Source: Mesoplasma seiffertii ATCC 49495 (GTDB lineage: Bacteria; Bacillota_I; Bacilli_A; Mycoplasmatales; Mycoplasmataceae). Taken from it: DNA of 64,000 nt. The stretch is taken from NCBI RefSeq assembly GCF_000518725.1, contig NZ_KI912485.1, forward strand, positions 251,866-315,865, in the 5' to 3' direction. Every line of letters begins with the position of its first letter. The first letter of the stretch is position 1. The notes under the pieces are model-generated. The model searched no databases and was not told the DNA's origin. It saw nothing but the letters and a program-made list of their open reading frames with translations. Positions 52,739 through 58,600 of the stretch are shown in pieces. The position numbers were made by a program, and so were the translations under genes.

Positions 52739-53881
52739 CTATTTATTGTAATTTGGAGCAGCCTGAATCATTTTTACATCATGAGGATGAGATTCAACAA
52801 GCCCAGCATTAGTAATTTGAACAAACTTTGTATTAGTTCTTAGTTCTTCAATTGTATGACTTCCAGTATAGCCCATCCCTGAGCGTAAACCACCCAACAT
52901 TTGGAAAACAATTTCAGCTATTGGTCCTTTATAATTAACCATTGATTCAATTCCCTCAGGAACTAATTTTTTGGCTCCCTTTTGGAAATAACGATCACTT
53001 GATCCACGGTTCATTGCCGCAAGACTTCCCATTCCAACATATGTTTTATAAGAATTACCATCAATATGAATCACATCACCAGGAGATTCTTCAGTTCCCG
53101 CAAACATTGAACCTAACATAACTGTATTAGCACCAGCTGCAATTGCTTTAACAATGTCTCCTGAATACTTAATTCCTCCATCAGCAATAAACGGAATATT
53201 ATGTGCTTGACAGTACTCATAAGTATTGGCAATTGCCGTAATTTGTGGAACCCCAACTCCAGCAACAACTCTTGTTGTACAAATACTTCCTGGTCCAATT
53301 CCAACTTTGACAGCATTTGCTCCAGCTTCAACTAGTGCTTGTGCCCCTGAAGTTGTCGCAATGTTTCCCGCAATAATTTCTAATTTAGGAAAGGCATTGC
53401 GAAGAGTTTTTACAGTTTGCAAAATTCCTTGAGAGTGACCATGAGCTGAATCAACAACGATAAAGTCTACTCCTGCTTTGATTAATGCTTCAACTCTTTG
53501 TAAAGTGTCAACTCCTGTAGAAACTGCTGCTCCTACTAATAAACGATTTTGACGATCATAAACGGGGTTCATGCTTTCTTCAATTTCAAATTTAAATTCT
53601 TTAACAAGTTTAACTTCATTGGCTTGTTGTTCAATAGTCAAGTTTTTATGAATGACCCCAACTCCACCAAGCTGAGCTAAAGCAATTGCTAATTTATGTT
53701 CTGTAACTGTATCCATAGCTGCTGATACAAACGGAATATTTAAAGTAATGTTATTAGTTAGCCGTGTTTTTAAGCAAACATCATTTGGTAAGACATCACT
53801 GAAATTTGGCACTACTAAAACATCATCAAAAGTAATTCCTTGATCAATTAATTTGTTATTTAAGTTATTAGTTTTTTCCAT
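52739..53881 (-). CDS. guaB: IMP dehydrogenase, short form without CBS domains
   Basis: 380 residues from ATG 53881, chosen because GGGAG precedes it and guaA ends just before. Catalytic-barrel motifs: [35 protein letters not shown] (catalytic Cys) and the flap region MNRGSSDRY. Most IMPDHs are ~485 residues with a CBS pair after residue ~90; here [20 protein letters not shown] joins the two barrel halves directly, so the CBS domains are absent. It makes XMP from IMP. guaA lies just upstream (2 bp gap), making a guaA-guaB unit. Confidence 0.95.
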
Positions 53882-53883
53882 AA

Positions 53884-55428
53884 TTACTCCCATTCTATTG
53901 TTCCCGGTGGTTTTGAAGTTACATCATAAACAATTCGATTAACATGTTTAACTTCATTAATAATTTTATTAACAACATTATCAATAAAGTCTCATGGTAA
54001 GTGTGTTGCTGTTGCAGTCATAAAATCAACTGTATCAACACTTCTTAAAGCAGCCACATATTCATAAGTACGATTATCACCCATAACACCAACAGTTTTA
54101 ACAGGTAACAAAACAACATGTGCTTGTTGAACTTGAGTATATAAGTTTGCCTCATGCAATGCTGAAATAAAGATATCATCAACTTCTCGTAAAATGTCAC
54201 ATTTTTCTTTAGTGACTTCGCCAATAACACGAATTCCTAATCCTGGTCCTGGGAAGGGATGACGATCAATCATTTTGTCAGGAATTCCTAATTCACGACC
54301 AACCTTACGAACTTCATCTTTAAATAAATCACGAATTGGTTCTAATAATTCAAACCCCAAATCTTCAGGTAAACCTCCAACATTGTGGTGAGATTTAATT
54401 GTTTTTGAACTATGTCCTTGTTTTGAAGATTCAATAACATCAGGATAAATTGTTCCTTGTGCTAATCATTTTGCATCACGACTCATTTTACGGGCTTCTT
54501 CAGTGAATACATCAATAAACAATTTTCCAATCATTTTACGCTTTGCTTCTGGTTCACTAATGCCACGAAGATTTTTATAAAACAATTCACTAGCATCAAC
54601 CATTTTGATATTCATATCAAAATTTTTAGTATAAGTTTCCATTACTTGAGAACCTTCATTTTTACGAAGCAACCCAGTATCTACAAAAATACAAGTTAGT
54701 TGTTTACCAATTGCTTTTGAAATTAAAGTCGCCGCTACTGAAGAATCAACTCCTCCACTTAATCCCAAAATTACTTTATCTGTTCCAACTTTAGTTTTAA
54801 TATCAGCAATTGCTTTTTCAATGAAAGTCGCCATATATCAATCTTTTTGAGCTTGTGCAATTTTAAACACAAAGTTATTCAACATTTCAGCTCCAAACTC
54901 TGAATGAGTTACTTCTGCATGAAATTGAATTCCATAAATTTCTTGAGTTTGATGTTTAATTGCTGCAATTGAATTTTCTGAATGAGCAATTTGATAAAAA
55001 TCTTTAGGAATGACTGTCAAATGATCAGCGTGACTCATTCAAACATTTTTATGATTAGGAATTTCGGCAAATAGCAAGTTTGTGGCATCATCAATGATTA
55101 ATTGAGCTTTCCCAAATTCTTGTTTGGTTGCTGCTTCGACTGTTCCCCCAAATAAATGCGTGATTAATTGTAGTCCATAACAAACTCCCAAAACAGGATA
55201 ACCTGCCTCAAGAATTTCTTTATCAACAGTATAAGCATCTTGTTCATAAACACTTGCTGGTCCCCCTGATAAAATAATTCCTTTTAAGTTAGGGTAGTTA
55301 TCTAGATCAGCTTTAGTAATATTGAAATCGACCACTTCAGCTAAGACATTTTGTTCTCTAATTCGACGAGCTAATAATTGAGTATACTGACTTCCAAAAT
55401 CTAAAATAATAATTTGTGTTTGTTGCAT
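53884..55428 (-). CDS. guaA: GMP synthase (glutamine-hydrolysing)
   Basis: 514 residues, full length. Glutaminase Cys83 in GVCYGLQLI with HAEVTH downstream; PP-loop ATP site [13 protein letters not shown]; and dimerisation tail ending [16 protein letters not shown]. Converts XMP to GMP. A purine riboswitch lies in the leader; guaB follows. Several Trp are TGA. Confidence 0.97.
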
Positions 55429-55444
55429 AGTTCTCCTTTGACAA

Positions 55445-55563
55445 ATAAAAAACTCGTAGATTTTGCAAAAAGTATGCAAAAAACTTCTCCACGAGTGTTA
55501 AGTCTTATAGATTCGTATTGGTACGACGTAGAGACACCAACCCATTATGTTGGCTTATACAAG
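55445..55563 (-). promoter_or_regulatory. Purine riboswitch (guanine type, divergent) with terminator platform
   Basis: Aptamer at 55504-55563 on the minus strand: P1 CTTGT / ATAAG, the TATAA joint, P2 CCAAC / GTTGG with loop ATAATGG, the J2/3 joint TGTCTCTAC, P3 TCGTA / TACGA with short loop CCAA, then the CTAT joint carrying C in the purine-pairing position (guanine type). Downstream, CTCGTGGA / TCTACGAG plus six T (55447-55495) forms a terminator that competes with P1. The guaA gene follows. The short P3 loop is unusual; recognition of 2'-deoxyguanosine, known from Mesoplasma, is possible and not tested. Confidence 0.85.
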
Positions 55564-55629
55564 TTTTTTATATTAAATTGTTAAGATAAATATTACTATC
55601 TTTAACAACAAACTACAACTATAAAATAA

Positions 55630-55653
55630 AAAAACTTAGCAAGCTAAGTTTTA
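55630..55653 (-). terminator. Terminator after polC
   Basis: AAAACTTAGC / GCTAAGTTTT with a 2-base loop, including the polC stop. Confidence 0.75.
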
Positions 55654-58600
55654 AAATTCAAATGTTAATTGTTCGTCACTTGATAATGAATCAGTAATTC
55701 CTAATTCATCAAAGATTTTTAATTGTGTTTGTGTAACTTGAGTTCGATTTTTTAAATCCGATACTGAAGCAATTGCTGAAATTTCTCGAGCTTTAACAAT
55801 TGATTCGGCCACAGTGATTCCTAGTGAATCAATAATATTAAATGGCGGAATAATTGTCTTTTCATGAGTTTCAGGATTTTCTACAACCACAAATCTTGAA
55901 GCTTGTGAAACCTTAAAATCAATATTTCCAAATTTAATTCCACGAGAGAACATTTCCAACATGATTTCATAAACGACCATCAGGTCTTCATCTTTTTTAG
56001 TTAATTTATCACCATAAGTTCCTGATGATCTAGCTTCTAACTCTTTAAGACGAGCATTAACTGCATCATATCCTCCAAGAGAAACTTTTAAATCAAAAGC
56101 ATCAGCTCTAGTTGATAAGAAGGTCGCATAGTATTCTGCTGGATAATGAATTTTGTATCACGCAATTCGATATGCCATTAGCACATACGCTGTCGCATGG
56201 GCTTTAGGGAACATATACTTAATTTTTAAACATGAATCAATATATCAGTCGGGAACATTGCATGCCTTCATTGCTTCAATTCAAGGTTTTTTCAATCCTT
56301 TACCTTTACGAACAGATTCCATAATTGTAAAGGCCATTGATGAATCTAATCCCATTGACATTAAGTACACCATGATATCATCACGACATCCAATAACTGT
56401 CGAAATATTTGCTTTATTTTCTTTAATTAAATCACGAGCATTTCCTAATCACACATCAGTTCCATGAGATAATCCAGAAATTTGCACTAAATCGGCAAAA
56501 GTTTTAGGACTTGTTTCTTTAAGCATCCCTCTAACAAACTGAGTTCCAAATTCGGGAATTCCAATTGCTCCTGTTGTTTCTCCATTAATTTGGTCTGGTT
56601 GAATTTTTAAAGCACTTAATCCAGAAAAGAGTGAATAAACTCGTTTATCATTTGTGGGAATTGTCATTGGATCAACTCCTGTAATATCTCTTAAAATTTT
56701 TAAAGCTGTCGGATCAACATGACCCAAAATATCCATTTTCAATAAGTTGTCATGAATAGAATGGAAATCAAAGTGAGTTGTTTTTCAGCTTGAAGATGTA
56801 TCATCAGCTGGATAGTTAATTGGCGTAAAATCTTCAATTTCATACTCCGATGGTAAAATGATAATTCCTCCGGGGTGTTGTCCAGTTGTTCGTTTAACTC
56901 CTTGAGCTAAACTAGCCAAACGTTCAATTTCAACTTTTCGTGGTTGATTTTCATAACCAAATTTTTCTTCATAGTATGATTTAACATACCCAAACGCAGT
57001 TTTTTCGGCAACTGTCGAAATTGTTCCGGCACGAAAAACATTATTTTCACCAAACATTTCTTTAGTAAAGTTATGGGCTGTTGGTTGATATTCTCCAGAA
57101 AAATTTAAATCAATATCGGGAACTTTATCTCCTTCAAAACCTAAAAAAGTTTCAAACGGAATATCATGTCCATCCCCTACTAAACTTGACTGACATTTTG
57201 GACATTGTGCTGGTGATAAATCATAACCACATTTAACATCAGCTGGAGTATTAAAATCTGAATACTGACAAGTTTCGCAACGATAATGCGCCTTCAAAGG
57301 GTTAACTTCGGTAATCTTTGCCATTGTTGCTACAAACGATGAACCAACTGATCCTCTTGAACCTACTAAGTAACCATCATCTAAAGACTTTTTAACAAGT
57401 AAGTGAGAAATTCAGTAAACAACTGAAAATCCATACTTGGTAATTGAAGTTAATTCTTTTTCCAATCGTGCTTTAACAATTTCAGGCAATTCTGGACCAT
57501 ATAATTCATGTGCTGTTTCATAACATTTTGCTCGCAATTTTTCATCTACATTTTCAATTGATGGAGTATATAAACCATCTTTAATAGCTTCAATATTTGG
57601 TTCTACCATTTGAGCAATTAAATTTGTGTTTTCAATTACAAGTTTGTTAATCAACTCTTGGTCTTCTAATCAAGCAAACTCTTTAAGCATTTCATCTGTT
57701 GTTCGTAAATGCTGATCTGGGTTATCTTTAACTCGTCCTTTGTAATCAAATAATGGGTGACGTGTTCCTCCCAATCCTTTAGCATTAATATAAACTTCAC
57801 GAATTTGTTTTAATTCAGGATTGGCATAATGGGCATCACTAGTTGCCACTACAATTTTGTTAAATTTTAAGGCTGCTGAAATAATTAATTTGATTGTTCG
57901 TTTTAATTCTTCTTCATTTAAAGAATCATTTTGTAAAAGATTTTTATAAACACTTAAAGGTTGAACTTCAACATAGTCGTAGTCCTGAATACGTTTTTCC
58001 AGTTCAACAATTGTGTTAGTTCGAGCCATTTCAAAAATCTCTCCATTAACGCAAGAAGTTCCTAATAAAATATTGCCACGATCACGAGTTTCAATTAAAG
58101 TATTTTTAAAGATTTTTGGACCTCCAAAAAAGTTATCGGTATGTGATTTTGAAACAAGTTTATATAAATCTTTTAATCCTACTTGGTTTTTAACTAAAAC
58201 TGTTGTGTGAAATCCACGAGTTTTAACATAGTTCATATTTTCTTTATCATTTTCTGGATGAATTTTTGCTCAATCAGAATCAAGATTGATATCAGTTTTT
58301 TTACGCATTTCTGCTCACATGTGTTCATAAATATCTGTTAAAACATCAGCGTCATAATCTCCACGGTGGGCAACTTTTTCATCATAAAGAATTCCATTCT
58401 TTTTAGCAACAGTTCCCAAACGGTGATTTTTCAATCCAGGGTACATTGCACGAGCAATAGTTAAAGTATCAATCACAGTATTTGTTAATTCCGGATATCC
58501 TAATTTTTGAGCATAACTATTTAAGAAGTTAAAGTCGAAATTAGCGTTGTGAGCTACTAAAATTGCTCCATCAATAATTTCATAAATTTGTTTAAAGGCT

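Follow-up and report, generated by a model that had tools for sequence, protein, structure and literature searches.

A purine riboswitch with a short P3 loop before guaA in Mesoplasma seiffertii, predicted to sense guanine

Background

The leader of the guaA gene of Mesoplasma seiffertii ATCC 49495 raises the question of which purine an aptamer with a strongly shortened P3 loop recognizes, and how it might control GMP synthesis. We analysed a window of 64,000 nucleotides of this genome (contig NZ_KI912485.1), within which the original prediction placed a divergent purine riboswitch at 55445-55563, an interval that spans the aptamer core and the terminator. Taken together, the results described below make it very probable that a guanine-sensing purine riboswitch turns off guaA-guaB by premature transcription termination.

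Results and discussion

The aptamer and its gene context

The covariance-model search with Rfam does detect a purine riboswitch, as had been claimed: RF00167 matches the minus strand at 55582-55488 with a score of 41.7 bits (gathering threshold, 37) and E-values of 0.0018 when the window is compared with all Rfam families and 6.7e-6 in the genome search (Table 1; aptamer positions follow the numbering of Bacillus subtilis xpt). All the core elements that had been pointed out from the sequence are present, namely the UAUAA joint (55559-55555), CUCUAC (55533-55528) and C74 (55510), as is the very short P3 loop, CCAA (55521-55518). The alignment assigns U22, U47, U51, A52 and C74 to the pocket; U47, too, is counted among the ligand-contacting bases. 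The proposed alteration of the loop-loop contact is correct inasmuch as the contact is shortened, but it is not lost, as both the GG of L2 and the CC of L3, which form the G-C loop-loop pairs, are retained.

Table 1. Features of the guaA leader and the adjacent genes (positions in the window)
Feature	Positions	Strand	Basis or remarks
guaB, IMP dehydrogenase gene	52739-53893	-	overlaps the end of guaA
guaA, glutamine-hydrolysing GMP synthase, 514 aa	53884-55428	-	genetic code 4; TGA encodes Trp at 4 positions
Terminator hairpin (55495-55453) and U tract UUUUUU (55452-55447)	55447-55495	-	folding, sequence
T (switching) strand CUCGUGGAGAAGUUUUUU, also 5' arm of the terminator	55478-55495	-	folding; conservation
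P1 3' strand UAUAAG (A strand)	55504-55509	-	RF00167 alignment, folding
J3/1 U73 C74	55510-55511	-	C74, expected Watson-Crick partner of guanine
P3-L3 hairpin GUCGUA-CCAA-UACGAA	55512-55527	-	short loop; G54.A72 mismatch at the junction end
J2/3 GUCUCUAC, predicted ligand pocket	55528-55535	-	U47 55534, U51 55530, A52 55529
P2-L2 hairpin GCCAAC-AUAAUGG-GUUGGU	55536-55554	-	RF00167 alignment; GG 55543-55542 pairs with CC of L3
J1/2 UAUAA	55555-55559	-	RF00167 alignment; U22 55557
P1 5' strand CUUGUA	55558-55563	-	RF00167 alignment, folding; overlaps P (switching partner) strand AAAAAACUU, 55569-55561

The location before a GMP-making operon is borne out as well: the guaA start codon (55428) lies 3' of the U tract that ends at 55447, and the IMP dehydrogenase gene follows, the two genes probably forming one operon. 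The identity of GuaA is supported by a match to the NCBIfam model of glutamine-hydrolysing GMP synthase (779.7 bits), and the protein is 84% identical to its homolog from Mesoplasma photuris and 83% identical to that from 'Acholeplasma' multilocale, in line with an origin among mollicutes of the Entomoplasma-Mesoplasma-Spiroplasma group. The IMP dehydrogenase consists of only 384 amino acids, and a Pfam search (E <= 1e-10) detected no CBS domain in it. Upstream of the leader, on the same strand, lies polC, separated from the leader by an inverted repeat, AAAACTTAGCAAGCTAAGTTTT (55629-55655), which is likely to be the polC terminator on the minus strand.

Conservation of the aptamer before guaA

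Searches of all four genomes of the genus to which the window belongs identified the aptamer directly before guaA in each of them, and the same association is found in another genus (genomes G207-G209). Within the four-genome set, UCGUA/UACGA is replaced by UUGCA/UGCAA in P3, and CCAAC/GUUGG by CCGAC/GUCGG in P2, in both cases with compensation, whereas J1/2, J2/3 and J3/1 are invariant and U73 and the G54.A72 mismatch are conserved. The retention of the element before guaA in four of four genomes, with changes in P2 and P3 that preserve pairing, argues that it is more than a chance match. At the level of the order, 94.5% of the cells are paired in an alignment of 33 aptamers, 17 of the 22 pairs show changes on both sides, the covariation score is 0.69 compared to 0.23 after shuffling, and the two GG-CC loop-loop pairs are retained in 32 and 29 of the 33 sequences, respectively.

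The RF00167 score of the guaA element is lower than those of most of its paralogues, three of which reach 52-56 bits in the genome search, as could be expected of a decayed aptamer that has lost its regulatory function. Such decay appears extremely improbable, considering that the four genomes keep the element with compensatory pairs, an invariant pocket and a conserved T strand.

The guaA elements of the Mesoplasma florum genus (L238, L240, L242, L243, L244 and L247) have a rebuilt core, with C22, A47, a J2/3 that is one base short, U51 and G52; their scores against a model derived from the surveyed aptamers are only 35-40 bits. Given these changes, the family has no single fixed core in front of guaA.

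The predicted ligand

To place the guaA element among its relatives, we compared 124 distinct aptamers from the order. The combination U22/U51/A52/C74, which the guaA element shares, is found in 102 of these; C51 is limited to three nrdF elements, all other aptamers having U51, and U74 to purA elements and some of the NCS2-permease elements, with C74 in the remainder. The inner L3 loop of 4 nucleotides is the commonest form of L3 (70 of the 124 aptamers) and also occurs in the adenine-type purA and permease paralogues of the same genome; for these reasons, it does not point to another ligand, and the short loop was rejected as a sign of a new one. Thus, the suggestion of a ligand other than guanine was not supported, the loop being clade-wide and the pocket that of the large majority of the surveyed aptamers.

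Guanine is contacted by U22, U51 and C74 (PMC9295807), whereas C51 is critical for the preference of a nucleoside over a base: replacement of C51 with U reduces the affinity 83-fold and 18-fold in the two 2'-deoxyguanosine (2'-dG) classes, and the U51C change alone makes a guanine riboswitch prefer dG (PMC8872408). The presence of U51 in the guaA element, combined with this published role of C51, makes guanine the expected and, judging from the aptamer sequence, the most likely ligand. An adenine riboswitch was rejected because C74 occupies the position where U74 is required.

The element could instead sense a nucleoside, 2'-dG or guanosine, and control GMP synthesis in the manner of the 2'-dG-I riboswitch of M. 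florum (dGsw), with which it shares the bacterial family and the logic of the expression platform; furthermore, a shorter L3 has been described for 2'-dG-I as well (PMC8872408), and the C22/G52 core of the guaA elements in the M. florum genus resembles that of 2'-dG-I. We nevertheless regard nucleoside sensing as quite unlikely. The guaA element has U51 rather than C (C58 in M. florum numbering), U47 rather than A, and a U-A rather than a C-G pair at positions 22 and 52; the genome has C51 aptamers at other loci, upstream of nrdF and of a BMP lipoprotein gene; and the short loop is common in adenine-type and permease aptamers. Membership in 2'-dG-I was accordingly rejected on positions 22, 47, 51 and 52: instead of the C22-G52 core pair of this class, the element has U22 and A52, and its CCAA loop, although shortened as in 2'-dG-I, is not diagnostic, being of the common 4-nucleotide form. 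The claimed kinship with the 2'-dG group stands in the sense that the element comes from the same bacterial family in which 2'-dG-I was found.

Conceivably, U73 and the G54.A72 mismatch, both close to the ligand, might tune a broad purine-base sensor to hypoxanthine or xanthine: U73 is present in all four guaA elements of the genus, and guanine riboswitches favour their ligand over these two purines by a factor of only about ten (PMC9295807). This seems very unlikely, however, because the ligand-contacting bases are unchanged, and U73, present in 43 of the 124 aptamers and upstream of genes of many classes, does not track a gene-specific ligand and was rejected as a gene-specific marker. A xanthine-II riboswitch was also rejected, as the element has U51 rather than U51G and lacks the junction insertions of that class. 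U73 and the mismatch may lower the affinity. Considered more broadly, sensing of a guanine nucleoside or of any purine other than guanine by the guaA leader appears unlikely; what speaks for it is that U73 and the G.A mismatch are fixed in the genus and that the guaA core was rebuilt in M. florum relatives.

Competing folds and the proposed mechanism

Downstream of the aptamer lies an expression platform, for which competing folds were computed, followed by the purine genes guaA-guaB. When growing transcripts are folded, the ligand-free minimum at 112-118 nucleotides (-21.7 kcal/mol) is an antiterminator, compared to -13.1 to -13.8 kcal/mol when the aptamer is forced. The antiterminator consists of two pairings, one between AAAAAACUU (55569-55561) and AAGUUUUUU (55486-55478), and the other between CUCUACG (J2/3 and the first base of P3, 55533-55527) and CGUGGAG (55493-55487). 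At 135 nucleotides, when the terminator strand is complete, the terminator fold becomes the minimum. A simple consensus scan of 55380-55700 flagged neither a promoter nor a terminator, so the terminator assignment rests on folding.

The core of the T strand, AAGUUUUU, is invariant in the four leaders of the genus while the surrounding sequence varies. In the comparison of the fold gap with shuffled tails, 3, 7, 3 and 11 of 100 shuffles reached the observed gap in the respective elements; the support from this test is only moderate, and the antiterminator rests on anatomy and conservation rather than on the shuffle statistic.

By analogy with the 2'-dG riboswitch of M. florum, for which a metastable antiterminator scheme with strands named P, A, T and H has been described (PMC5838219, PMC12268651), the guaA leader may operate kinetically. 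When guanine is scarce, the T strand (55495-55478) would disrupt the aptamer by pairing with both J2/3 and the P1 5' strand, and with this antiterminator in place the polymerase would read through into guaA. When guanine is available, it would pair with C74 and contact U51, U47 and U22, locking P1; the T strand would then remain available for the terminator hairpin, which is followed by the U tract. Hypoxanthine or xanthine would be expected to act likewise, albeit more weakly than guanine. Since ligand binding favours P1, an OFF switch is predicted, and control in this direction would be sensible for guaA-guaB.

Other purine aptamers in the genome and the C51 group

The genome encodes further purine aptamers before purA (L001) and the genes for an NCS2-type permease (L002), a PhnD-like lipoprotein, NrdF and a BMP lipoprotein, of which the PhnD-like lipoprotein aptamer is guanine-type (C74, U51). 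The nrdF aptamer (L004 1515-1586, G000:C6:35208-35279) combines U22 with a J2/3 of GACUCCACC, that is, A47, C51 and A52; C51-type nrdF aptamers are also found in G203 (L118, with U47) and G205 (L119). The aptamer before the BMP-family lipoprotein gene (L298 1501-1570, G000:C2:252281-252350), the sixth in the genome, has the same J2/3 (A47, C51, A52). It was found with the model built from the surveyed aptamers and is absent from the hits of the RF00167 genome search; relatives are present in G203, G204, G205, G151 and G152. The lipoprotein itself probably binds nucleosides. Judged by their junctions, the nrdF and BMP-lipoprotein aptamers are candidate 2'-deoxyguanosine sensors.

Elements with C51, A52 and U22 occur in genomes of four genera (g1, g2, g11 and g12), and the nrdF elements of the M. 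florum genus and of G153 have GACCCCGCC with C22, as in 2'-dG-I. Three more C51-type aptamers (L321, L326 and L328, from G209 and G202) precede other genes; the gene downstream of L326 and L328 appears to be DHH-like (RHxxPDGDAYGSQLG), and none of the other aptamers was seen with a gene of this class. Because 2'-dG-II contacts its ligand with U22, C51 and C74 (PMC8872408), the C51/U22-A52 group would combine a first shell resembling that of 2'-dG-II with a scaffold resembling that of 2'-dG-I. The group appears to be a naturally occurring intermediate of the guanine and 2'-dG-I riboswitches and is directly testable as such; in the literature searched, we found no description of these aptamers.

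These observations suggest that 2'-deoxyguanosine sensing should be sought in the C51 aptamers rather than in the guaA element, and indicate that, in this bacterial family, a short P3 loop is no sign of a new ligand. One small genome would divide the labour among U74 aptamers before purA and the permease gene, aptamers with C74 and U51 before guaA and the PhnD-like lipoprotein gene, and C51 aptamers before nrdF and the BMP lipoprotein gene.

Comparison with known riboswitches

By sequence, the guaA element appears to be an ordinary transcriptional guanine riboswitch of a known kind. It resembles guanine-I riboswitches (RF00167) in the three-way junction, the U22/U47/U51/A52/C74 pocket, the GG-CC loop-loop pairs and the predicted OFF control of purine genes by termination. 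It differs from them in that L3 comprises 4 nucleotides inside an A-U closing pair (L3 of the B. subtilis xpt aptamer has 7 nucleotides), U73 replaces the commoner A73, a G.A mismatch is present at the base of P3, and the predicted antiterminator also recruits J2/3 itself. The purA and NCS2-type permease paralogues from the same genome share the scaffold and the short L3 with the guaA element but have U74 instead of C74. The dGsw of M. florum is similar in its short L3, its origin from the same bacterial family and an antiterminator composed of the P1 5' strand and a downstream T strand; its core, however, is C22, A47, C51 and G52, compared to U22, U47, U51 and A52 in the guaA element, which would control guaA rather than nrd genes.
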